Below, piece after piece: positions 3,482-60,200 of a stretch of DNA of 64,000 nucleotides (the stretch's first letter is position 1; each line of letters begins with the position of its first letter). This DNA comes from Paramecium tetraurelia (Eukaryota; Ciliophora; Oligohymenophorea; Peniculida; Parameciidae). A program made the translations under genes and the position numbers. Below the pieces are notes generated by a model. The model did no database searches. It saw only the letters and a program-made list of their open reading frames with translations, and was not told where the DNA came from. Location of the stretch: contig NW_001799477.1 in the NCBI RefSeq assembly GCF_000165425.1, positions 1 through 64,000 of the forward strand, in the 5' to 3' direction.

Positions 3482-4474
3482 TCAAATGAATTCAAGTAGT
3501 GCCACATCTTTGGGTTATTCTAATCCATACCTACATAGTGGACAACGAGGATCTCTTCCCAGCCACTATTTACAACATTCAGCATGGAAATAGTGTTCCT
3601 GATGACAGGGCAACTGAATTACACTATGTGATTCATTAATTTCTTAGTAGCAAATAGGGCTAACATATTAATTTAATATACCAATCATTTTATTGCATTG
3701 AAGGGCGTTGTTCTTTTAATTTTCTAAATTTGATGTTCTATAAGGAATCATAGAATCTAATGATTAGGTTCCTGTTCTATTGATAATGCAATTCTTGCCT
3801 TATTACAATGAACCATAGCATTACAAATGGCCAGATGAAACACATAAGCACAGGGATTATCCAATAAAGAATTAAAAGTACAAGATAAAATTGAATGAGC
3901 AATGGGGTTTCGGTAGTAATAAATAGCATAGTAGTTAGAGTGTAGACCGAAATAAAGTAGTACAACAACTTAATTGTAATGCAATTAAAATAAAAGGACT
4001 TTTGCTCAATAATATCAATGACAAGTAGTCCATTGACAGGACGATAATAGCTAACGAATTCCTGAATGATTATTTAAGTTATGGATGAATTCAAAGAGAG
4101 TAAATTAAGTTATCTATTATAGTTCTATATATCAATACTACCAATGTATTAGGTTAAAATTCTAAATAATTTTTAGATATTTACCCTATTATGAGATAGT
4201 GAAGGATGTTAATAACATCGTGCAAACCCATAACTAAAATAAGTATACTAAAGAGAGGTTCTACTATTTATTGATATTGGGACAAAGTAATAAATAGTTT
4301 GATTAGATAATAGAAGCATAAAAATAAACAAAGAGCATTTCCTTCTTTAATAGCGCTGGGAAGTATGGGCAAATAATTATCTGTAATTAGGAGTCTATCA
4401 TCTAAATAGGAGCTTTCTGATCCAAAGTTGAGTGAGTGGTCCTGGTGCCAAAAGAAGTTTACTTCATTAATCAT
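3482..4474 (-). CDS. Multi-TM RING-H2 protein (putative E3 ubiquitin ligase)
   Basis: 315 codons after removing two introns (4162-4184, 23 nt; 3660-3681, 22 nt). The N-terminal three quarters is hydrophobic with about four membrane spans (LCLFLCFYYLIKLF; LFSILILVMG; LLYYFISVYTLTTMLFI; YLVLLILYWIIPVLMCFIW). The last 60 residues form a complete C3H2C3 RING at residues 257-299: CPIC, CH, H, CPLC. The second intron splits the first RING cysteine codon, and removing it restores CPICY. Such proteins usually act as membrane-anchored E3 ligases with an E2 enzyme; substrate unknown. The start codon lies 28 bp from that of the divergent gene at 4503, so a common regulatory region is likely. Confidence 0.85.
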
Positions 4475-4502: not shown

Positions 4503-6664
4503 ATGGAAGAAACTGAAGCTTTGATAAAATCATCTGAGCCTTAGCATACCAAAAACGTAATTTAGGCACTCTTGAATGAATATCAAATTATGTACGCTGG
4601 TCTATAAAATCAGTACTAAATTTATTTTAAGTATAGAGAATACTTGGATTATTGCTTCGTTAAAGGAGCATCTGGACAAACAGTCCCATTAGCCCTGTTA
4701 TTACCAGTAGGGTTGTTCTTGGGAGTAGTAAATATATTGTCAAAAGCCACAACCAATATTATCGAAGGTTGATAATGATGTCAAATTTAGGTGATTATAT
4801 CTTGTCAAATTTGGTTTATGTGATTCTCTAAGTCTGTGGACTCTGCATAGTTCTATATTTATTACTTAAAGCATGTGAGGTGATACCGAAGAAAATTCAA
4901 AATCCACTTCTTTTTGGGAGAGTAACAACTTACGTTTTTATGTGTTTACTCATCGCCATGGGAATTTTAGTTGTTGAGAGGATAGTTGAAGGACAAGCAA
5001 GAACTTATCATACATCTCAATTCTGGGTGGTTTTCGCTTTGATAATCTGGTAAAAGATATTGGTCTTATTTATATATGATTATAAAGTTAGATTTGCAGC
5101 ATTTTTATTTTTATACACTTATTATGCCTTTAGAGTTTCAGGTGAAGAATTTAGATGGGCTTACAACCTCTTAAAAGCATCAGTATACATTATCCTGGAG
5201 TTGGTAATGGTAATAGACAGAGAATTGAAGGATTATGCTGACTATTAATTGGAGAATAATGTAACATTTTCTAAATCTATTTAGATACAAACCAAATAAG
5301 TACTAGATGAAGTAGTTCCTCCCATGAGGATGTTTTAACAATAATTCCTCCTTGAATCTTATCTAAAAGTGTTTCCCGTTGTAATTTTTGATCAAACAAA
5401 AGAATTACTTAATATTTCATCTGAAACTTTAAAATTGTTAGGCCAAAATGATTTGTTTTAGGCTGAAAAACAATTAAGAAAATTGGAGATAATAGAAGTT
5501 TTTAATCGAAAAGAATAAGTGTCAGCCAAAGAATTTACTGTTAAATTGACTAGATAAGCTAAATTTGGATCTACTTGCGGAGTAAACGAAAAAGGGGATT
5601 TATTGCATTCATTGATTAATGGACCAGCCTTATAGCAATTAAGAGCATAGTAATAAACTGACTAGCCAAGATTGCAAACTCAGGGGTAATTAGAATAGCT
5701 ACTCAATGAATTAATCAAAGGAGATCAAGACTATTTAAAGGGACTGCTAGTATTGAAATTAAGTAAGGAAAAGTAGTTCTACTTCTCATTTCATTTGATT
5801 AGAAACAAAAAAATTTATCTATTCTTAGATGATGTTTCTGATATTATGAAATTGCAAATGAAAAATAAGGACGAAAATTACGAGACCAAAGAAATTAAAG
5901 ATATTAATATCTTATTGTCCTAGATTCGATAGATTTCTACACTGAAAAGCTATCCTATTCCTACTAAGATACAAAATATTGAGATAAAATCTTGTTATTT
6001 GGAATAGAATTAATTGAGAATTAATTATGATAAAATTAATTTTGATCAAATGGTCATAAATTTACAAGAGTATTATAAACAAAGAATTCCCTCGATTAAA
6101 TATCAATTCAAAAATCTAATTAAATTGAATACTAGCTTCTTTACAGATGAAGAAAGACTTCGATAGATTATTGATATAATTATGGAGAATAGTATTGAGT
6201 AAACAAAGGATGGATTTATTGGGATAACTTTTGAAAACGATGCAAGGCCCAATTGTATTCAAGTATCCATCCAAGATACAGGAATTGGGATCAATCTAGA
6301 GTTAATGAAGGATGAAATGGGTTCCAAACTTTCTGGGCTCTTCATTGCCAACTATTTAACTAAAATATTGGGAGTCTCATTTTTCAACAAAAAAATTAAT
6401 GGACAAATCGCAAATAAAGGTTTGAGGATTGTGACCACATAGGAGTACGGGACTAAAATTTCATTTACACTTCGAAATATGTTATTCGATCAGAACAATG
6501 TGTTCTTTCTAATTGATGAAAATTTGGAAGAGGATGAGTAGAATCAAGATGAAATTCTAGAAAGATACTTAATTGAAGATTAAACTCAATATTTAAATAG
6601 ATTAAAGAAGTATATAAAATATCTGTATTTATAGACCTATTAAATATATTGTGATGAAGAATGA
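4503..6664 (+). CDS. Membrane protein with C-terminal HATPase_c domain (histidine-kinase-like)
   Basis: 712 aa with one intron (4768-4790, GTT...TAG), needed to skip an in-frame TGA. The N-terminus has about five to six membrane spans (for example LALLLPVGLFLGVVNIL; VYVILQVCGLCIVLYLLL; VFMCLLIAMGILVV). The C-terminal third carries the ATP-binding domain of the histidine kinase/Hsp90 superfamily: an N-box like DIIMENSIEQT (about residue 550), a G1 box DTGIGIN (about 585), then SGLFIANYLTKILG and EYGTKISFTL in the expected order. I could not find an H-box (HE.R.PL) or a receiver domain, so signalling by histidine transfer is doubtful; it may be a degenerate sensor or an ATP-binding regulator. 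It overlaps the start of the next model by a few bases. Confidence 0.75.
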
Positions 6665-9794: not shown

Positions 9795-11106
9795 ATGAAT
9801 AGTGAACTCTTGATTATGGAATCAACATTATTTAGTGCTTCTGTGATTGCTTTGCTAATTTTCAAAGAGTCCCAGATTAATCAAAAGATAATTAAATTAC
9901 TGTTTTCTTTGGCAAACATTACGATATTTTTATTAGAAATAAAGCATATAGGAGATTCTATTTGTAATTATATATTTTTGAAAGGTTAGATGTTTTATTA
10001 GCTATTTCTGCCTTTCTTGTGAGTACATATTTTTATAAAGTGTTGAAGAGAGTGAAGGATGAGATTCCGCAGATTCAGGTCTTGAATACGTAGCTTTCAG
10101 AGAAACAAAATAGAGTGGAGTCGGAAATAGAATTGCCATAATAGTTGCCAGTGATTCCATCGATTCATGAAAGCAATTCCAGCATGAATCAAAATTAGAA
10201 TCCTCCCACAACTGAAAATAATAGACGACATAGCAACATTTCAGGTGATTAACAGAATGCTAGACAGGAGTAGGGAATGAATTATTTGGGGGACAACAAA
10301 AGGCCTTCATACTAGTAGAGAAACAATGGACTTGGAATTCTAATTACTCGTTAGCAGAGTGTTGCTTAGATCTAACGTAATAGACTTATTTATTTTTAAT
10401 AGCCGACCTGAATGTGATTAAGTTTCAAGATGACTTTGGAGAGATTAAATTCGGAATACTTAAAACCCTTAAGTCAGTTGCTTATGACTAATTAGGCAAG
10501 GAGGTGGAAGGGATATTTCATACGGATAGGCCCTTTACAAAATTATTATCAACAGTTGAATAAACGAATCAACCCAGAATGCAGATTTTGTATGAGAGTT
10601 AAGCGCAGAACCAATATGTTGACGACGCTTTAAGAGGAGCAATCCAATTAGGGGACATGGGATATGGTGAAAAGAAGGAAAATAAGTAGATTACATGGTA
10701 AAAAATATTAAAAGCCTTAATTTTAATAATTATTTTAAATCTAAATTTAGTTATAATAGATAACTGGAATTTGCAATAATTGATCTTATTTTTTGCCATT
10801 TTGTGGAGACAAATATTGCAATTTAAAAAATTGATGGCACACTCATTGGAAGTGAAGTGTGAGTTAAGAGAAATCCTGATTTGGTTTGCTTTGATCACTC
10901 TTCCAATTTTGATTGTGTTCGTGATCAATATGCTAGACAAGAGTATAGGGAAATAAGTGTTGTAAGTTGCAAGTTGGATTGCCTTGATAATATCTTCTAA
11001 GTACAGTAAGAGTTGCGAGGAGTATGTAAATATCAGTAATCCTAGATATCTTTATGGTTGCTTATTTTACATATTTGTATTGACAATAGTACTCTGTTTT
11101 ATTTGA
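9795..11106 (+). CDS. Polytopic membrane protein, unknown
   Basis: 419 aa from three exons; the introns are 9964-9989 and 10377-10402, both 26 nt and ending TAG, each needed to avoid a stop. Two or three membrane spans lie at the N-terminus (FSASVIALLIF; LLFSLANITIFLL; VLLAISAFLVSTYF). A polar, Gln/Asn-rich cytosolic-looking stretch of about 150 residues follows, then four spans at the C-terminus (ILKALILIIILNLNLVII; LILFFAILW; ILIWFALITLPILIVFVI; LYGCLFYIFVLTIVLCFI). No family or motif recognised. Confidence 0.7.
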
Positions 11107-11168
11107 ATATGATTTATATTACTCAAAAAATGATTATTTAAGTAATTAATATACATCTTAAATTAATC

Positions 11169-14100
11169 ATGAATTAATAGTATTTAAGGAACAAATTTAA
11201 GATCAGAAAGTCTGTTGATACTCCTCTTATTCCAAAGATAATGTCAATGAAAAACGAGCAATCATCATTAAACGAAACCAATCGAAAACGCTACATTAAA
11301 GCATTTAGTCCTCAACGTTATCATTTGCCGCAGATTGTTCACCATTAGTTGGATACCATTACACCATTACGACAAAGAGGGAAATCTGAAAGCATTAGAG
11401 AACATTCTTAGGGATTCTTGGGGCCAATTGATTTCGCTCGGTTGCTACAAACTGATCAACAATTGGGATAGGAATTTTGTTATTTAAATAATTAGGGTAA
11501 TCCATACGAGTGGAAAGTGGTCAATTATGAGAATAAAAGGTTGGAATAATATATGACGATAAGCGGAGGAGGGATTATAATTCATCATAGTAATTTTGAG
11601 GAGTTTGTGTCTATCTAATAATTTGAAAAAGATCGAAAATTATTTTATAGATTACAAAAAATTGAGTTCTTCAGAAATTATCTTAAATAAAAGACATTTG
11701 CTAGGTGGAAGAAGTTAAGCATCAAGAATAAAGCTTAATCAATTTCTAAGGATCTGACTGCATGTTTCTTGTTATTGGATCCCTCTCTCAAGTGCCCAAT
11801 TGAGGAAATTCATAAACACACTCAGAACATCAAGAGTTTAGTATTTTTTATCCCTAGTGAAATGAGTCCTGTAAACAAAATTAAATTCATCCAAAAATTG
11901 TAAAGATGTTTGACTGACTTCCAAAATGAATTAACTTAGAACATTAAATTAATACTTAACATAGTAGTTGATGCATGCCAAAAATCCTTTAATCTTTTTA
12001 GAGAGGATCAAAAATACAAGGAGAATATGGAATTGATACGCAATTCTTAAATGGAATAAAAGACTCTGATAATTGGTGTATTAATGCTCTACTTATACAT
12101 AGGACAATTCTACTCAATAAATGCCATTCACAATCGAATCAAATCTAAGATAATTTCAGTAGAAACTAATCAAATTTACAAGAATGGTCGATTACATTCA
12201 ATTTGAGAGTATGATCGCATTGATGTACAATTCCATAGTTAATTTCTTGAAGGTAATGAAGAAGGCCAATAAGCATCTTAAAGTTGGGTAATTGTTACTC
12301 CTATTCAATAGAACAACCTAGTTCAGTTGGATTGTTGTGGATATTCATTTGAAGGAGGGTACCATGGTGTTTGAACCTTCGCTCTAAGGCATGTAGGACA
12401 TCTTTGTTGAGACAGTTGAATAGGCGATCGATATCATTGAATAGAGCATTTAATCAACCCGTAAACTGTAGGAACTATAGAACTATGGAGTTGGTTCAAG
12501 CACAACAGATCTGAGATAAGATTTGAGAGAGTATGGAAGACACAATTTAAAGTCATATGATTATGTAAGGGAACTTGGGTAAGAGCTACAATTTAGTTAC
12601 AAATAAATTGAGCATTACATGGCAAATATATAGAATTTATTGGATAAATTCGCAAAGAGTGAAGATCAGTTGTTGAATGCAGATGTGCTGAAGCTTCAAT
12701 TCTAATTGATCTCAGAAATGCAATCTGAAGTAGAGGCTATAGAAACCATTGTGGATATTGGGTTTTTGAGATTGAACATCAAGCTCTTTAAATTGTAGAT
12801 GCAGGCCTATTTCAAGAATAGGATTTAGGTGATCAATGAGAAGGTGGATTTGGAACTTAGTGTGAGATGCAAAATAATTTATGAAACAATTCAAGATTGG
12901 TTGGAGAAGTTGAAATTGAAACCAATGACTTTGAAACAATATGTCACTTATTAAGAGAATTATTAGTTGATTAAATCTAATTATGAAGTCATTGATCAAT
13001 AAATAGAGGAATTACATACTTATAACAAAATTTATATTAATGAGTAATAAACGATCCCTATTAAAGAAGTTTGGGATAAGATTGTTAGTTAATATTAATA
13101 ATTTTAACATAAGTTTAATGATTTATAAAGTCATTATGGATTGGAGTAACATAAGTTCGAGAAGGAGTTCAGAAAGCTGACTCCGTTTTTTCATCAAAGG
13201 GTGTTATAATTTTGCGAGAAATTTGAGAACAGCAAAGACATCAATGATATAAACTCGATTTCATAATTGTAAGTCGAATTGATTGCTTTGGAATTGGAAT
13301 ATGAGGATTTGAGAGAGTATTCTGACTCTTTACAAATAGGATAATATTAAAATGAATAGTTACATGAGATAAAAAGCAAATATGTCTAATTTAAGTAATT
13401 GCAACTAGAAATACGTAAGATCAACAATTTGCAGTAGGAGTGGATGAGAGAACATTTTTTGGATCTGAATCTGTCTCTCATTAAGACAACTTATTAGAAT
13501 TTGTTACATTAGATTGAAGATTGTAAGATATTTGGACAGGGCTAATTAGTGCAGATAAAGAAATAATTGATGGATGAATTAAAACTATTTAATGTGATAG
13601 AAATCATTTTGTAGATCAAAGATTATGATTAGAATATCGTAACTTAAGTGTGCAAGAAGGATAAATTGTAGGATAAAAACTTATTATAATTACTATTGTA
13701 AATTTGTAATAATCCCTCACACCCATAATTCACTACTCTATTTTTGTAGCAGTTAGACATTGCTGATCAATAAGTTAATTTGTAGTAACTATTAATTATT
13801 ATTTAATATGAAAATCAAACAATGAACTCATTGATTAAATTAGAAGAGTTTTGGAAGAATCATAAATTGATCATTCAAAAGGTCAGAGGAACAAAGGATC
13901 AGTATACCATAACTAATTTAAGTTAATTGAATGATCTATTGGATGAGAACATTTTAAACATCAATACTATTCTGGGTCAACCTAATATTGATGATCTGAG
14001 AAATAGAATCGATTTACAACTTAAGTACATATATTACCTACAGGAATACATCAATTAGTTGATTCTCTTACAAGATACTCTATAGTATTTAACTAATGTG

Positions 14101-17100
14101 TTGTAGATCCAAATCAATCAAAAGAATTAGAGTAAGGAAATGAAGATGTATGCTCTCTAAGAAAAGCAGTGGAAATAATTGATACGATTTATTTAATAGC
14201 AAAAGAGTTTGGAGATATGGATTAAAGATGAGAACGAGAAGAAGTTCTTAAAAGAGATTCAATAAGATAATTACAATTGTAAAACTATCATTCAATCATT
14301 GAATGATTAATTTGATAAGAAGAAACATGTATTCCCAAGATTCAATTTTCTCACAAATTCTAAATTTACCAAAATTGTCTCTGAAGTCAAACATCCTACT
14401 GCTATATAGCAATACCTTAGCCTATTTTTTCAAAATATCCATCAATTTGATTATGACGAAAATAAGGATTGTATCAAATCTTTGTATTCTAAGGAAAATG
14501 ATTAAATCGCTGTTAAGTATTGTCCAATCAAAGGAGAGATCGAGGAATGGCTCAAAACTATTGAGGAAGGCATGACCTAAGGATTGAGACAGCTTGTAAA
14601 GAATGCTCTAAAGCAGGCTGAAAACTATAAGCATATTGTGCAATATCCCATTTAGATTATTTATATCTGTATGACGATTACATATACGATGATGTTGGAT
14701 GATATACTTTAAAATGATGATAAGGATTGGGATGAGTTTTTGGAATTTAAGCAATATGAAATCCAAGAGCAAATCAAACAATTGCATACAGTGAAATAGT
14801 CAGTTAAACAACAATTAAGGTAGATTGCAATCATTACGATATTGAATAATCAACAACATCTAATATAGGAGATTAATTTATTTAAAATCAATAGTGATAA
14901 AGATTACTTCTACGTAAAATAACTTAAATATTATTATGATGATGAAAATATAAATGTTAATTTTTTGAATAATAAAATCCATTATTAATTTGAGTTTTTT
15001 GGTGATCAATTTAATTATCATTCATGGAAATAATCTGAATAATCAATTTTGCTTATGAATCAGGCATTCGAAATTAATAGATTACCTCATTTAATTGGCG
15101 ACAATAGCAAGTATTATATTATTACTCAATTTTCACAAATGTTGGGTCGCTATTATATGCAAATGTAAATTGCAAGTCCAGATTATGATTTCTAGTATTT
15201 ATTGTAATGCATATTCGGATCTATACAATCGAATTCATTTTTCTTTATCTCAGGATACTAATATATATAATAACATGATAGATTAATCTTGTAAACAATA
15301 TTCAATCATATCTCCAGTGCCTTAAGGTAATCACTATCAATTTAGGATTTGGATGGGAGACAATTGAAATTATAGAATAAGTATTTTCTAGCTCTAGTAT
15401 CAGATGTTCATTTTCCCATCTTATCGTTTAAGAGTATACATGTCTATTAACCAGATACTATGATCTTATGGCAAGCACTTATTCAAATGGTATACAATAA
15501 AGAAATAGGTGAGATATTGTTGAAATTAATGTAAACGTTAACTAATGTCTTTGGAACTGAATTGTTTAACTTTTCTAGGTTCAATACATTCAATCAAGTA
15601 GCTAAAAAATTGAAACCCATTAAATTTAATGATCTACTGGAAGTATTGTAATATCAGATGAATGAAGAGGATAGGCTCTTATTCAATTAAATAGTGAATG
15701 AATACTTTCCAAATAGGGATGAGAAATCGATATCACATGGAACAATTGAATTCATTAATAAATGAAAACAATCTTATTTTAGTCTATGGTAATCCGAACA
15801 ATGGAAAGACCAAATTGATTTAGGAGTTATTTCAATTTAAACTTTAATCGGTAAATATTAACTAAACACAAAATCCCCTTCTATAATCGGTTAAGTAAAA
15901 CAATATTCTCTATCTTGAACTTGATGCTTATGACGATGAGGATTTGTTTATGATTTTGTAGAATTGTTAAGGGTTAAGTTTTTATCATTTCATTATCAAT
16001 TATAAACAGAAGCAGATTTATTTTCAATAGGAGAACTTTATATTTTTCAATAGCTTAATTTATTCAAATAGATCTGCAATCTTTGAAAGTAATGATCTAT
16101 CAACGTAGGATCCTGGATTTTTGGCGAAATTTACTCTATTTTATTATAATAACAGTATTTCCAATCAGCAATTTCTCGTTTATGAATTGAAGTACATGAA
16201 GAATTTAGAGTTACAAACTTAATTGGCTCGTAATTTGATTAATTAAATAGAGTAATATTAGCAATAATTATCAAACTTTCCGTATTCATTTTAATATTTA
16301 TTGCGATGTTCTGCAAAGATACTGAGTATTTACTACAACGAATAGTAGTATAGTAAGTTCACTTAGTTGGATGTAGATAATATTAGCACATATGCAATAT
16401 ATATACTATTCTGTTTAATTTTGGATCAAGAAAATAGATCTCGTGTCATAGACCAGATTTTAATGGTTATTTAAGAAAGAAAGTTGGATTAGCTTTTCAA
16501 TCAGAAGTCTTCCTATACCAACACAATTTTGCAATTCTATTTTAATCAGCAAGAATTATATGCTATCCAAGAATTGCAGAGTCATCTACTATTTTATGGT
16601 GACATATCTTGTAATAAGAGTATTTTTGCTAGGTTGAAGTCATAAAGTAGCTTGTACTTTAGTCATCAAACCAAATCAATTCAATTTTAGGAGTTCATTG
16701 ATAAGAAGTTGATGACTTATAGAAAAGATAAATAATTGTGCTTATCTCCTCCCTTTGGTTAAATCAAACACTTTATAATAGAGGATATCAATCTATCAAA
16801 TTAATGCCGCATATATATTAAGTAATTGAATGAATGCAATTACATGTTTGATAAGAAGAATAATTGTTAACTGAAATACGTTAGTAACATTTATTTGTTG
16901 GGAACTTCATAGGAAAAGGCCATTTAAAAATATAACCAATTCAAGCATTTCATCTTCATCAACACTAATAGATGTCCATTAATTTAAAGTATCTACACAG
17001 AAATAATAATGAGTAGGGCCAAATATTAACTAAAGTAGTATTTAGAGTTAGGTTATATAAATGATGGTATTTTGAAATTGTAACACAGATTCAAATAAAA

Positions 17101-20100
17101 GTGGAATAAACAATGGTGTTATTCATATTTATTTGACAACAACACCATTTGGAATAGGATTTTAAATCCTTTGGTTGTTTTAACTGATCCTCAGTAGTTC
17201 GTGAATGAATTCTATTAGAATATCATGAGAGTTGTAGGTGGGATGATGGATATTGTCGATTTGCATAATTTGGATATGTTTGTGAAGGAAATCAATTTTG
17301 GTGATTATAAGATTGAGGTTCCAGTTTCAGAGACAGAGTAGACTTATGATGAAATCAAAAAGAGGAATATTCAAAACCTATTTTTGCATGAAAGTCATCT
17401 ATAGAAGATTGTATGGATAATGAGAGGTTGGCAATACGATCAACACGTTGTAATTCAAGGTAGAATTGGTAGTGGCAGGAATTCCTTCATTAGATTAGCT
17501 TAATTTATCATGTAATATCAACAGAAATACGATGATCTGGGACTAGAAAATCTCCTATTGAATTGGGATTAGCTGAGCCATATCATTTACATCACTAATA
17601 TAAAGGAAGATGTGTATCAATTCATCAGTTATCCGATTTAATATTGTAACAACCTATATGTATTGAGAAATGAATCCATATAATAGTTGCACATTTGTAT
17701 ATTGATTGAGAATTTGATGGAATTAGATTAGTATAGGAGAGTACTCTATAAATGTTAGATTATCAGTTTGTTTGATTGGCCCAAGACCTTTCAATAAGAG
17801 GTGGCATCTTAAATTCTGAATGATGGATCCATTGATACTAAACTATTTTGTTATGTCTACGAATAATCATAAGGATACATTCAACAATTCCTTGATCAAC
17901 TCTATTTATTTCAAAAATAGTATCAGCAATCTAAATCTGAAAATTAGAGATTAATTATCATCTATTAGAAAATTCTTAATAAAATTCAAGAGGCTAACAC
18001 TGAATTCACGACTATTGCAGCATAGTACAATGCATTAAATCAGGAACATTAGATGGTCACTAATTAAATTAAAATTATAACGAATGAGATATCTTAGGAT
18101 AAGTTGGAATTGGGAAATATCAATCAATAAATTCATAAATTGAATGAGGATATCAATAAAGGAGAGCAGAGAATTCATAAACAATAATTACAATTAAACT
18201 AACAAAACCAATAATATAACAAATAGAGATTGTAGTTCTTCCACATAATTTAAGAGTTCCCTTTCTTGTAACCATTATTGATGGAATTGGTACACTTGGT
18301 TGATTTGCCTTAATTGGAACAAGATTAGATTGAATAAATTATAATGAAATATCCTTAATCTTTTTAATAAGTCTAAACTATTTATTAGATAGCAACCAAC
18401 ATTTGTAAGTATCAGCAAATCTTGATTTAATTAAAAAACAACCTCCATAATGATAAGGTAACAGTTGAGGAGATGAGAAATAAACAAGAACTGCGAATTG
18501 GGATGATACAATAATAGGAACAATAAATCATTGTCTATCAATAGAGATTACACATTTTGACAGAGGAATTAGAGAAAATCTCCAAGATTTATGAGGCGAC
18601 AAGAAATTGTCTACAGTACTTGAATTCTTATTAGGTTCAATGGCAATAGAATATTTTAAATTTATAATAGCAATAACTCCAATTAATGGAAATCAATTTT
18701 GTACAAAGTGTTAGTTAAAGTTATAATTAACAAATAAGGTAGTAACTCATAGATAATTTAAACTTTCAATATAAATTGGATTATGAAAATATGTAATTGC
18801 TTTTGAATTTGAAATTTTAGAATCAAAAAAACATTCTATTGATCATCGATCCTGAAAACCTCTCTCAAGATTATCTTCAATAATATTATCCAACAGCATA
18901 AGTGAGTACATTCAGTAGAAATAATATTAATGAAATCAAAAGAAATTTAAGAACTAATTAATGCTATATCATAAAGGATGTAATTATTGATGAGATATTA
19001 AAATGTTAACAATGGAGATCATACATTTTATAATATCAATAACAATAGGAGAATAAAATATATTTGATTACTCATTAAATAAAAAAAGAGACTCGAGCTT
19101 AATCATTACTCAGAACCATTTAGTTTAAGAAATAAGATAGGGAAATTGAGTCCTTTGTTCTACTGAATATACTTCAAATGGATAACCCTGACACATTTGA
19201 TAAACTAATATCGTAATATGATGAAGAGAATTTAACTCTGATAAATTTGGGATCCCTCTTCAATGATGATCGTCCCATAATGGACTCCCACTATGAATAG
19301 CAATTGAGTCTATTGATATCCTCTTAAGTTAATAGTCTAATTAACTTAGATATTATTGCATAGATCCAGAAATTTATTGATCAATAGGAGCAACAGAAAT
19401 AACATAATAGGTAATTCAACTTCTAAATATATCAACCCTTGATGGTGAGATTCTTATTAATTTATAAAAGTTTACAGTAGGCTTATGTGTTTGATCGTCG
19501 TTATTACATCACAATGCAGCAACTGATGAACAGGTTAATTTAAGTGATGGATTAAATCAAAGTGGATAATAATGAACGATATTGGCTAGTGAGTAATCAA
19601 TTCACATCTCAAACAATACAATTAATAGAAAATCAATTCAGAATAGAACATCATTTAATCATGAAGTTCATCTTATTTACTTAAATAGATATAGGAGATA
19701 ATGTTATCTCGGAAGAATAGTACTTGTATGTTATAGGTTAGAAATTAAAGAAGGATTTAAGTAAATACCCAAAAATCTTAACTGTTTCATTTATCAAACA
19801 AGAGTAGTTGGATGAAATCAGACATGTAATGAGTTTGTCACCATCATTTAATGATTTGCAAAACTATATCTAAAGGTGTCCTAAAGACTGGTACAAATGG
19901 ATGGATGACACAATTACTATGCCAAGTGAATACGAAGAGTAGTTATAAATATTCGAGAAACTTATCTTAATCAAAGCATTCAAACCAAAACTCCTTAGAA
20001 GATTCATCAATGAATACGTAAAGGATAGAGAGGCAAGACACTCCACATAAATTACAATGAACTTCAATCATTAGACTAGTGAAAAACAGATCATTTATGT

Positions 20101-21682
20101 ATAACAACAATTAAATAAATTCTTTGAAGACATCAACATACCCATTTACAAAGGATAGCAAGAATTAAATTAGCAGTATTTATTTATTAATCTCTACGAA
20201 TATCCTTTGGAATTGCAAGAACAAATCATACAGAGTAAATACCCTCACTGTATTATTGAAAATTACGATGAAGACAGTTTACTTGATAAGACTTTGCTGA
20301 ATTCTTAGAGGTCATTTCTACAATATAATGAATAAATACGCTAGAATATCAAATAATACGTTCCTAAATCTGATGGCAAAACAAGTGAAATGAAAAAGTT
20401 CACTTACAGTCTCTGTTTCATGCACTTTTTCATAATTCAGAGGAATCTTCTATTGAATCTACAAACTGCTACCTATACTTTGTAAGATTTAAATTTGATC
20501 TTGAAATATAATTTGCCATACTACTTTAATACCAACATTAATAGCATGTTTAGAGTTATTACTGATGGGGTATATAATGTTCCTCCTGAAGATCTATTGA
20601 CTATTGAGAGCATAATTACCAAACATTGCAACTAATAAGTGAATAATGAAAATTATTAATACTTACATTTTCAAACTCTTACAGTTGGCAATGATGCATG
20701 GTTAGATGAGATGGTTAAGCGTATTCCAGATACTAATGATCCTTATAGTATTGGATATGGATATAACAATTTTACAATTTATAATTACTAAAATTAATAG
20801 ATAATTTAGTAGTTTTCATTATTAAACAATAGTTCGGAGAATACTGCAAATAATCAAATAACCCCAGAGATTAAATTAACTGAACCTCTCGGTTTGATAA
20901 AGATGGAGTAAAAATTAACTAGAAAGTATTCATTTCAAAAGAACGATTCCAAACCTTTCTCTTAATATTATAGAAAAACAGCGCTCAATATCACAAACAA
21001 AAATAAACAAAATATCTAGTATACTGATGCAGTTGATCAGTACATTAATATTCAGATCTCAAAGTATAACGTATTGATACAAGTATTGACTGAATATCTC
21101 AATAAAAATTAAGAAAACTTAGCAATGTACTGTCCAGAAGAACTTTATTAATATTTGTGGTTCAAACCAAAAACTAAATTGATCATTCACGATTTAGTAA
21201 AAATGGTGAATTACAATATGAATCAATTAAAACTATTAAGAGATTAACAAAATCGAAGATATTTTGATTTGAGTTACCTTTTTATACCATAAGCATTAAT
21301 GGAATACTTCAAATTGCAATTTAGTCGTAAGAATGGTCTAAATCCTTAGAATCTTAATGTTTATACTGATATCTCAAAATGTACAGAAATGAGTCACATA
21401 TTTCAATTGCAATTGAATGATGGGTCTTATTTACTAGGGGGATTAGAATGCCAGAATTGTCAATGGAGTTTAGAAAAGAATAAATTAATAGAATGTGGCA
21501 ATTCACTCTCGACCTTTATTCCATTCATCCTCATTTCAACTTTGGAAGGTGAGCAACCCAAAAAATTAGAAGTTCCAGTTATGGACAATAATCTAACATT
21601 AATGACTATCGACTTGTAATCTGATCTAGATGAGGATACAATTAATATAAGATAAGCCAGAATAATAATAAAAGGCAGATGA
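11169..21682 (+). CDS. Divergent dynein heavy chain with degenerate AAA1
   Basis: About 3,495 aa, shorter than usual axonemal dynein heavy chains (about 4,000-4,500). One clear intron (12078-12102). The order fits dynein: tail/linker, AAA ring, stalk coiled coil (about 17900-18650), and a C-terminal domain (GGLECQNCQWSLEKNK). Where AAA1 should read GPAGTGKTE the sequence is HLIGDNSKYY (about 15090-15120), and where Walker B should read CFDEFNR it is FFFISGYQ (about 15220-15250), so the main motor site looks dead. AAA2 keeps a P-loop (GNPNNGKT, about 15805). AAA3 is altered (GDISCNKS, about 16595). AAA4 has GRIGSGRNS (about 17460), like other axonemal dyneins. The microtubule-binding tip seems short. 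One frame break (near 15690-15770) is not explained by a normal intron. Likely a structural or regulatory, non-motile dynein; DNHD1-like identity is only a guess. Confidence 0.85.
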
Positions 21683-22160: not shown

Positions 22161-22231
22161 GAATGCGTGCTGAGAATGTTTATTTAGAGCAAAGCTATGA
22201 GTAGTAGCAGATATTCATTTTAATTATTTTA

Positions 22232-25315
<3,084 letters not shown>

Positions 25316-55820: not shown

Positions 55821-57238
55821 TAAAATTAATAAATTTATTTTTTTTGAATTTTACAGTTAAAATATAATTTTAAGGAAGTTATGAATAATTTTTGAGATTT
55901 TTTATTATTTAAATTTTTATCAATCTTATTTCTAACTACCATTTAATTTCTTATGATGTTTTTTTTATCTTATCAGTATTATTTTCAATATTTTCTAAAC
56001 TTACTGTTTTCGAAATTTTCACTTATTTTTATATTATTTTTTAATTCAAAATATTCTTTATGATATTTAATGATAAAATCAACTTTAATTGTTTAGTTAA
56101 AGTAAAGCATTTAATTACATTTTATAAAACGATTGAGTTATTAGAGAAATAATTATCTTAAATTTATGGACATATGTTTAAATTCATATTATTGATAATA
56201 AATTATATTAATATAAAATAGGAATATATATGATTTTAAATAAATTATTTTTTTTTTTAAATTCCTTTTTTATGTAAAGTTGATTAGATAGGTTTTAAAT
56301 AATACTTTTACTCTTGCCAAATTATGAATATTTTCTAAAATCATTGAAATTTGTAATAGTATAATTCAATTAAGAAGAATAGTTGATTATGTTTTCAATT
56401 CATAAAAATTTTGGGGGGACTTTCGTTTTACTTTTTTCTTATGAAAGATCTCATGTAAAACTATTTTTGGAGTTTTTTTTAAAAAGTATTTTAGATATAT
56501 TTTTAAGAGAAAGAAAAGTTTAATTGGGTTTTTATAAATTAAATTGAAATCAACTCTGGTTAATTTTGCTATCTTGTTAATAAAATCTTTACTCATGCTA
56601 AGTATTTGATTTGATAAGTTTGAAATTATTAGTACATCATTTTAGGAGAATCAACAGGATTAGATGGTTTAATATTTTAATTTAAAACTAATGCATATTA
56701 AATGTAAATAATAACAAAAGCTAATAAAATATAGAAGTAATATTTCTAAAATTATTGAATGTATTACTTTTACAACGCGATTATACAATCACAATTTTCT
56801 AAGATATAGGATGTCATTTTGAAATTTCAATATTAGAATCTGTGTTTTAATAGTGCTTAGTTTATATTAAAAAAGTTTTGTTAATGTAATTAAATCCAAC
56901 AATTATTGTATTTTAATTATTTCTTTGATCAGAATAAGAATTAGATTAATCATTATATCAATTATAATAAAAAATGTTTTTTTTTCTTTAAATGTTTGAC
57001 TATCCTTTCACAAAAGACACTGGAAAGTGAGCTTTTTATTAAGCAAATAATTTCATACAAGATTAATTATGAAAATTAACTGTTATTCTGACTCTAATTT
57101 AAATTGTTAGATCTGTTAGTAAAGAATAGGATGGGAACAGAAAAACATTAGAAAAGATGTTTTCTCAATCAGATCAGAATCAATTAAATAATAAAAAATC
57201 TTATAAAATGTTAAATTTAATTTATTTCTCAAGGGGAT
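55821..57238. other. Long AT-rich intergenic region
   Basis: Extremely AT-rich with many poly-T/poly-A runs. A Lys/Phe-rich frame at 56387-56596 (minus) exists, but its composition is that of random AT-rich DNA and it has no neighbouring support. I see no gene here. Confidence 0.5.
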
Positions 57239-60200
57239 TAACGTTTATCATCATATCTAACACTTTCAAAGGTTCTTTAATCATGATCCACCGGAAATAC
57301 TTTTGCTCCATTACTTTATGGTGCTATCATATTTTCTTAATTGCTCTATTGATGAGCTGGTAAGAGATTTTATTTCTCTTGGTTTATAAATGGAATTTCT
57401 TGAATTGAGGGTGGAGGAGTAGGCAATTTATATATTCCTGGATTATTACGAACTAATTTCATAAGATACCTTCTTATCATTTAAAATCTATTTTTAACTC
57501 TTTTCTGCTGTTGTCCGCGGTTAGTCAACAGCCTTTTGAAGATCCAATTTGAATTTATAAGACGAGGGTATTTTTTATTGATCATATCTCTAACCTTATC
57601 AATATTCTCTTGTTAATCTTCAAGCTAAGCCAATACAATTTCCCAAAGAATAATTATAATGAAAACCAGGTTGAATATAATTAAAAGCATATAGAATGGC
57701 CAAACAATTTCCTAATTGTTGGACAAAGAGGATTAATAAATTGTCATTCCTATGACAATGGATGTTCCACAAATAAGAGTACTAAATTCATCAATCAAAT
57801 TTAAGAAAGGCAACTTATAAGGCCTGTAGGATCTAGTTAATACTTAATAAATAAAAACGATAATGAAGACTAAGGCTCCTTTTATAATGATCAAATCCTC
57901 ATAGAATGTTAAAAATATAATGATAAATCCTTTTTCAAGTATTTTGACAATTTCCCAAAAATAAGCTTCTGTTTAGTATTCGTTGTACAAATATCCCCAA
58001 TTTTTTCTGGTGTTTTCTTTATCTAAATGATGTCTTTGTTTATATAAACTGATGAACATGAATGCTGGAATAAAAAAGGCAAGAGTTAAAGTAGAAGGCA
58101 ATATAAAAGTTAAAATCCAGTTGAAATGGGTTTAAGTATCGTACCTATAAGCTACATTGCCTTGAATCCAGTATAGATTAGAAATTTGTCTAAAGGAAAG
58201 TAAGGATATAAATCCACCAATTAAAGTAGGCTATAAATAGGTGAACAAATATATTGCTGTCGTTGTTATTGCAGATTTGTTTGGTTTAGCTAACCGTATT
58301 AATATCACAACGGCATAAATTATAAGGAATGTAAAAATGTACAACATGGGCATAAATAGAGCCCATATCATTCTGAAATATATGATATTGATATCAACAA
58401 GGTTAACTAGAAAGCAATCAAGGGAAAAACTCATGGCCTCTGTTGGATTACCAACTGATCTCACTGATGATTAAAGGGCACTTGGGAGTTTAAGTTAAAA
58501 AGTTGAGACAGCTCCAATAATTTACAAATAGTTTGTCAACACCTTTATCAACACACTTCCATATCCTGCTTTTGGATCTTTACGAAAGATTTTGAGGTGA
58601 TGCATCTTAGATTACGTAATCATTTTATCTACAGTTTCTACAGTTCCCTTAACTGATAAAAAAATAGAGATCATTGTCCAAATGCTCACTAGAATAACTT
58701 TAAGTGTATTATCACCGATGTTATTGCAACTTCCGCATTTATAAGAAGTACTAACCGAATGCGCTCCTTGACCTCTAATATTATAAATATCACATTATTC
58801 ACATAATGCTCCTACGTGTGCCTATGAACATAAATCATTTCCAGGATTCCATCCTCCCACACAGTTTTCAGGTAAATTCAGACAATATTCTATTTTATCG
58901 CTGCTTTCAAAGGGTCTCCAATATTCTGGTCTTAACATGACTCTGGCTGAAGAGACTTACTACATTTTGATAGGGTCTTTGATTTAACATTAATCACCAG
59001 CTTTAACATTATACTAATCAGCATTAGAATCACATAATTTACATGTTCCAAGTCTAGTTTTATATTCTCCTCTTTGACAAGGGAAAGTTTAGAGATTGAC
59101 TCTCAATCTATAATTCGTGAAATAATCCTACAATAAATAAGGAGGTTTTTCTTCAAAGATTGGAATTTTAATTGAATTGCATGTTATTTCAAGTTATAAA
59201 TATCCTATTGAAGAATAATCAGGATCGAATGTAATTTCCATTTAATCAAGATTGTAATCCTGACTGGTTGAATTGAATAAAACTTCTGTGATGCTAGTGA
59301 AATTAGTTAAGAATTCTCCTTCTTACTTATCAATAATTTACCTCCCCCTTATAAAACATTTACTACCTTCCAAAGACTTAATCTGACTATTCTCGTCATT
59401 CAGAGGTAATATTCTAAAAGTAAAATTATATGGAATGTAAGATTAGGTTATTTCATCAAAAATTTAGTATCCCCCAATAGGCTATCCACTGGGTAACATT
59501 ATGTTATCATATTCTAAGCTTCCCATTTTATATTGCTTTACATCTATAATTTCTGTTTTATTGGTTGAATTTTTCTCAAGTATTTTTTTCTGCATGATCT
59601 TTGATCCTATCTATAAGGTCAATTAAGTTGGTTAGTTTGCTAAGTTATCACCAAAATAAGATGCTTGGTTTCCTTGGAATACGTTATTCATTTTTGATGG
59701 TGATTACATTTAAAAATCACTTAAATATAATGCGCCACCTACTTTTGCTTAATTATTTGCAAAAACTGAATCGTACACAATCAATTATGTGTCCAATTCA
59801 TAATCGAAATACAATGCTCCCGCTACAGAAGATGCTATGTTATTTGTAAATTAACAATTTGAAATTACAGAACTCAAAGCTGATATCAAAATGGCCCCAC
59901 CAAATGTAGCCTGGTTATTATCAAATAAACTTTTCTCTAGTTTAATAGTAGATATTTATTTATCAAATTCGGCTTTTTCTTAACCTAGAATTCTATTTGA
60001 TTTGAACTTTGAGAATAATTGGATTTCATTTGTTGATTTAGCTGCAATTACAAAACAACTAAAAATTCCACATTAATTATCTTTTAAAATAAAACCATTT
60101 ATATAAATTAGATTTTGATTTTATTCCTCATCAATATTTGTAAACTTCAAAACACCCTTTTAACAATTAGCACAGTTAATCTTTTAAATGTTCATATTAT

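Follow-up and report, generated by a model that had tools for sequence, protein, structure and literature searches.

A duplicated dynein heavy chain-like gene of Paramecium tetraurelia with erased AAA1 motifs, a candidate pseudo-motor on the DNAH6 side

Axonemal dynein heavy chains are regarded as motors; DNHD1 is their known odd relative. A heavy chain-like gene of Paramecium tetraurelia, in which the catalytic motifs of AAA1 are erased, raises the question of whether such a chain is kept for something other than movement or is simply decaying. The gene lies on the plus strand at positions 11169..21682 of the window, the 64,000-nucleotide stretch of DNA analysed here (contig NW_001799477.1, positions 1 to 64,000). 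It is read with the table 6 code, in which TAA and TAG stand for glutamine and TGA is the sole stop, giving long open frames, and it totals about 3,500 codons. Exon 1 (11169..12077, plus strand, 303 codons) holds the start of the tail; its start codon was picked by conservation with a duplicate of the gene, G000:C179. A predicted intron of 25 nt (12078..12102, plus strand, GTATTAATG...ACATAG), present in C179 too, separates it from the second coding stretch (12103..15765, plus strand), which carries tail, DHC_N2, linker and AAA1 and ends at its own TGA. A downstream open frame (15698..21682, plus strand) runs from AAA2 to the C-terminal domain. Directly downstream of the dynein gene lies a glutamine-rich open frame (22163-24997; 21% Q, 13% E, 10% K) with no Pfam match at E 0.001. 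Elsewhere in the window, a HATPase_c protein (4775-6664; Pfam E 2e-8) is possibly a histidine kinase, and a weak match to the Chlamydia polymorphic membrane protein repeat on the minus strand (57229-60195; E 4.5e-6) is probably a short repeat resemblance.

The duplicate, at about 429333-439857 on the minus strand of C179, is 77-80% identical to the window gene and is the one close homologue that was found for it. Similarity between the two loci extends upstream of the dynein gene (window 10243-11168), so the duplication covers more than the dynein gene. Over some 10.5 kb the two copies are separated by three coding indels, one of 9 bases, one of 3 bases and one extra base near 15724 in the window gene (15720..15730, plus strand), of which the last alone has a length not divisible by three. 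It breaks the frame: the first frame is closed by the TGA at 15763-15765, and in-frame similarity to C179 begins in the downstream frame past the break. C179 spans the matching stretch in one open frame of 3,215 codons with no frame break. One-base run-length differences are a frequent assembly error, and the extra base is either such an error or a recent lesion. The preliminary description had called the gene full-length and otherwise open, which does not hold for the window copy, where the frame breaks near 15724. An intron at the frame change was rejected because every candidate would cut out sequence conserved in C179. The gene finder needed two introns there (15643-15674 and 15694-15716), and the single GT..AG introns that join the frames, 15648-15723 (76 nt) and 15694-15808 (115 nt), both remove conserved sequence. 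Of all single GT..AG stretches of 15-120 nt enumerated, these last two alone united both frames without a stop, and none in the range of 15-75 nt did so.

The protein is a relative of dynein heavy chains, as first proposed: DHC_N2, in the linker region (13360..14607, plus strand), is matched with a Pfam E of 1.1e-47, and nothing else in the window protein rises above the Pfam cut-off. A degenerate AAA1 module (15001..15717, plus strand) was recognised by its place between the linker and AAA2 and by alignment, with no AAA_6 match. In that alignment the Walker A position (15082..15117, plus strand) reads LPHLIGDNSKYY instead of APxGPAGTGKTE, the Walker B position (15238..15261, plus strand) reads FFFISGYQ instead of WxCFDEFN, and the sensor 1 position (15385..15420, plus strand) reads FLALVSDVHFPI instead of VFITMNPGYAGR. 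The live paralogs carry GPAGTGKT (mostly GPAGTGKTE) and FDEFNR or near variants at the Walker A and Walker B columns. The preliminary description had reported the replacement of both Walker motifs, and this is borne out; the loss of the sensor 1 MNPGYAGR goes beyond what it had claimed, and the ELPDNLKALF stretch after sensor 1 is shortened. A search for an intact P-loop elsewhere in the open frames found a sole GxxxxGK[S/T] in the window protein, that of AAA2. Judged by its sequence, ATP hydrolysis by the window AAA1 is not plausible. The question of local decay was put to the close homologue in the same genome, and C179 has an equally dead AAA1, with LPHLIGHYSKYY at Walker A and LFIITGYQ at Walker B.

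The AAA1 alignment has 17 rows, namely 14 paralogs with Walker A, a further chain with a dead AAA1 (C174), the window gene and C179. Of the 14 paralogs, C131 is partial and C180 is wrongly predicted past its Walker A by the gene finder; a decayed copy, C166:272k, was excluded. Against the profile of the 14 paralogs, C179 took a place among shuffled sequences, at E 1.4, and the window gene was absent among the matches listed. With C174 added to the profile, the window gene reached E 1.3e-4, above every shuffle in a set of 200, and C179 came out at only 0.095, the best shuffle at 0.12; this gain is slightly circular, since a single alignment in which the window gene and C179 were already present was the source of these profiles. 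A structure of AAA1 predicted from the window sequence alone had a mean pLDDT of 36.7 and was set aside.

The genome searched comprises 69.07 Mb in 231 contigs, and its 51 DHC_N2 match rows were grouped by us into 45 heavy-chain genes; match counts from the genome scan are lower bounds. AAA_6, the AAA1 family, matches at least 43 of the 45 genes, the two without a match being the window gene and C179. The AAA1 Walker A is present in 42 genes (the exceptions are the window gene, C179 and C174) and Walker B in 41, being missing from the same three and from C166:272k, where a 193-base deletion has removed the Walker B region. This last locus (G000:C166:269400-281900; L025, L026) is a decaying heavy chain near C219, in which the deletion runs through AAA1 and more frame-breaking indels are seen against C219.

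Beyond AAA1, the P-loop of AAA2 is intact (VYGNPNNGKT, 15782..15811, plus strand), that of AAA3 is altered (FYGDISCNKS, 16592..16621, plus strand) and that of AAA4 reads QGRIGSGRNS (17456..17485, plus strand); the kept GNPNNGKT and the altered GDISCNKS had been read in the same way at the outset. The Arg in AAA4 was considered as an extra loss and ruled out, the axonemal PDB chain 8glv_Me having Arg there too. The C-terminal domain (21248..21502, plus strand) was placed by coordinates transferred from the Dynein_C match of C179 (E 1.3e-5, 29.3 bits, cut-off 25.7) in the whole-genome scan, in which Dynein_C of the window copy was absent among the matches listed. No head domain in the window protein was recognised by Pfam. 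By full-length profile comparison (hhalign), colinearity with C128, C219 and C166:272k extends along 3,333 columns, at 21% identity (E 2.3e-60). In single-domain comparisons AAA3 was found in place (E 1.5e-4), a weaker signal at the right place came from AAA4 (0.023) and from the C-terminal part (0.069), and AAA1, AAA2, stalk, AAA5 and AAA6 were not clearly above shuffles (five each). Since profiles did not set these five apart, they are identified by position and motifs, and AAA1 also by the bridge through C174. Because most head parts are weak when taken singly, the long hhalign score probably comes mainly from tail and linker. One PDB match late in the window head had an E of 6.6e-5.

The stalk hairpin (17936..18832, plus strand) is shortened, with a reduced tip at about 18257-18355; a single-sequence model of moderate confidence (mean pLDDT 66) does no more than hint at a helical hairpin. 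From the 'WP' of AAA4 to the 'W' of CC2 there are 288 residues in the window gene and in C179, against 353 in C174, 365 in the decayed C166:272k, 368 in C219 and 374 in C128, which makes the stalk of the pair 65-86 residues shorter than those of the four paralogs and agrees with the short stalk noted initially. The Pfam MT domain has no match in the window gene or C179 and is matched in 41 of the 45 heavy-chain genes; the missing match is weak evidence, because C180 and C225:111k are without a listed match too.

Over 3,493 shared codons the dN/dS of the window gene and C179 is 0.083. It ranges from 0.068 to 0.119 in the nine regions with computable dS, AAA1 standing at 0.097; in AAA2 and AAA3 dS was saturated and gave no dN/dS. 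The pN of AAA1 is unexceptional, being matched or exceeded by 93 of 300 blocks of equal length. The dS of the pair (1.43) is about three times that of four other paralog pairs (0.38-0.47), for which reason the ratios of the pair are rough; either the pair is older than the others or its silent sites are less bound. The other pairs have dN/dS values of 0.032, 0.036, 0.067 and 0.048, the last being that of C219 with the decayed C166:272k, and constraint on the window gene and C179 is by this comparison somewhat weaker. Between C219 and C166:272k all 14 of 14 internal indels are not multiples of three, some of them possibly intronic or alignment noise. In the window gene and C179 the signs of a pseudogene, a loss of purifying selection and a piling up of frame breaks, are not seen: dN/dS is low, one break lies in the window copy and none in C179. 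The equal losses in C179, taken with the low dN/dS, indicate a dead AAA1 that is shared and maintained and not a local decay. The losses are beyond chance, since they are repeated in C179 while 42 of the 45 heavy-chain genes keep the AAA1 Walker A.

As far as sequence can tell, the pair most likely descends from chains of the DNAH6 type (inner arm dynein g). Over about 230 aa, exon 1 together with the opening codons of exon 2 is 29% identical in the window gene, and 31% in C179, to C219 and C166:272k. For exon 1 of the window gene the identities are 29% to C219, 29% to C166:272k and 25% to C128 (E about 1e-28 to 1e-22); the tail is of the DNAH6-type at its N terminus, with E 4.6e-28 to C219. 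The exon 1 frame matches nine PDB chains, three of them named DNAH6, a fourth being 8glv_Fm, and five others including the best, 9e5c_6d. C128 is DNAH6-type by PDB comparison (8glv_Fm best, then three DNAH6 chains), and so is C1. Past C179, the best genome matches of the main piece of the window gene are C219 and C166:272k (206 and 200 bits), the next scoring 103. The DHC_N2/linker part points elsewhere, matching DNAH7 and DNAH12 best in the PDB and not DNAH6, which speaks against this descent. A tree built from 18 of the 45 heavy-chain genes, the decayed C166:272k included, joins the window gene and C179 with C128, C219 and C166:272k (support 99/97), and an eight-row set that adds C131, C1 and C186:421k has support 95/97. 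After removal of four long-branch rows the five-row group was retained at 96/96. The branch of the window gene and C179 is very long (3.2 changes per column), and its letter composition deviates. One scan of prokaryote genome contigs and one of viral contigs found no relatives of the window gene.

A second heavy chain with erased AAA1 motifs was observed at G000:C174:273919-284123 (L027, L028). It is a single-copy gene, its next best match having only 22% identity, and its AAA1 reads GNSGKIET and FFALTKC. The likeness to the window gene and C179 lies in an AAA1 without Walker A, Walker B and sensor 1. Unlike them, C174 is single copy, retains the P-loops of AAA2 to AAA4 and a recognisable MT domain, has a partial AAA_6 (Pfam sees the first 87 of 327 positions) and stands on the DNAH1 side. 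In the PDB it matches DNAH1 and DHC2 best, its best paralog in the genome is the DNAH1-type C109:315k, and on these comparisons it goes nearest with DNAH1 (dynein d) chains. The tree keeps the two lineages apart, and a constraint joining them was not rejected (p-AU 0.129); in a BLASTP search with the AAA1 of C179, C174 was the only match listed (24% over 169 columns, E 0.005). Published accounts equate dynein g with DNAH6 and dynein d with DNAH1 (PMC10266980; also PMC10774353). The tails of d and g are described as merging at radial spoke 3, where dynein g docks, and the N-DRC protein DRC3 as being in contact with the linker of dynein g (PMC10266980); a further account likewise connects spoke 3 and dynein g with the N-DRC (PMC7987202). 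Since the dead chains sit on the DNAH6 (g) and DNAH1 (d) sides, whose tails merge at that spoke, it might be conjectured, with considerable reserve, that ciliates built a motor-less d/g-like pair at spoke 3 on some doublets, segments or types of cilia, switching off or stiffening the site.

The window gene and C179 are best explained as a pseudo-motor from the DNAH6 (dynein g) family that is kept as a structural or regulatory part, a reading to which we give a probability of roughly 0.6. A structural or regulatory dynein had also been suggested in the preliminary description, and that suggestion fits best: C179 shares the losses, and dN/dS is low both overall and in AAA1. The duplicate having been preserved in the dead-AAA1 state, the protein is probably such a part and not a motor. 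Of what a functional motor would be expected to carry, neither copy has the Walker A and Walker B of AAA1, and an MT-binding domain at the stalk tip was matched in neither. With AAA1 lost there would be no ATP-driven stroke, and a short stalk with no recognised MT domain would make no normal walking contact with the neighbouring microtubule. Tail and linker could still dock like an inner arm dynein or bind regulators, and the head may be kept as a passive folded body serving as spacer, brace or regulatory platform, in which AAA2 possibly holds ATP or another nucleotide structurally, for folding. The protein would act in some cilia or in part of a cilium. Very low-expression heavy chains of Tetrahymena, taken as minor or stage-specific components (PMC12399478), leave room for a minor non-motor role of this kind.

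Against the pseudo-motor reading it may be said that the window copy might yield only a tail-linker-AAA1 product. It is possible that the full protein comes from C179 alone and that the window copy, whose first frame stops at 15765 after a break that is present in the sequence, gives a headless product of 1,523 residues, or no product. Both this and the pseudo-motor explanation can be true, and the possibility has to be set against the 1,984 aligned downstream codons, which are open and 77% identical with few amino-acid relative to silent changes, and against the frequency of one-base run-length errors in assemblies; with those codons still open, any genuine break must be recent. The same frame break, together with the very long branch and a dN/dS (0.08) above those of the four other pairs, could also be taken as the mark of a decaying 'ghost gene', its motor lost and the remainder drifting to a pseudogene in both copies. 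Such a course is unlikely in view of the low ratio overall and across the nine computable regions and of the unbroken 3,215 codons of C179, and the truly decayed dynein of this genome, C166:272k, looks very unlike the pair.

That the protein is an unusual working motor, hydrolysing at AAA2, AAA3 or AAA4 and not at AAA1, is very improbable: AAA2 has a full P-loop and AAA4 has GSGR-S as in an axonemal PDB chain, but AAA2 is a non-hydrolysing site of dynein, AAA3 has an altered P-loop, and no MT domain is matched on a stalk that is 65-86 residues short. A non-ciliary heavy chain, for instance a cytoplasmic or stage-specific structural protein, is doubtful; a tail sequence is by itself no proof of axonemal docking, but tail and linker group with the axonemal inner-arm family. 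Least to be expected is a ciliate counterpart of vertebrate DNHD1. That gene too is a heavy chain relative of a non-standard kind, which the account consulted (PMC8754002) calls an orphan and a 'ghost gene', possibly a pseudogene in the making, but exon 1 and the tree place the window gene nearest to DNAH6-type chains, and a DNHD1 variant is put in a 'hydrolytic ATP binding site' (PMC9916431), a domain unrecognised in the window protein, the comparison being indirect.

Among the open-access papers listed in the literature searches, no title or abstract opening mentions a motor-dead ciliate heavy chain, which is not proof of absence. Two copies of a chain with a dead AAA1, kept by purifying selection, suggest that the giant dynein scaffold can serve a purpose even with its engine gone. 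Paramecium is easily silenced and tagged, so that a non-motor role, or a dummy filling an axonemal dynein site, can be asked about directly. Among known systems, DNAH6 or inner arm dynein g, a single-headed axonemal chain, shares with the window gene the N-terminal tail, the linker and, it appears, the order of domains, and the nearest live relatives in the genome are C219 and the DNAH6-type C128. Unlike DNAH6, the window gene has no AAA1 ATPase motifs, an altered AAA3, a short stalk and no recognisable MT domain, and it is shorter, with about 3,500 residues against 4,144-4,158 in the DNAH6 chains among the PDB matches listed. DNHD1, set beside it by published description, resembles it in being related to heavy chains yet falling into none of the standard motor classes (PMC8754002). 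That description sees DNHD1 as possibly on the way to a pseudogene; the window gene and C179, by contrast, are under purifying selection.
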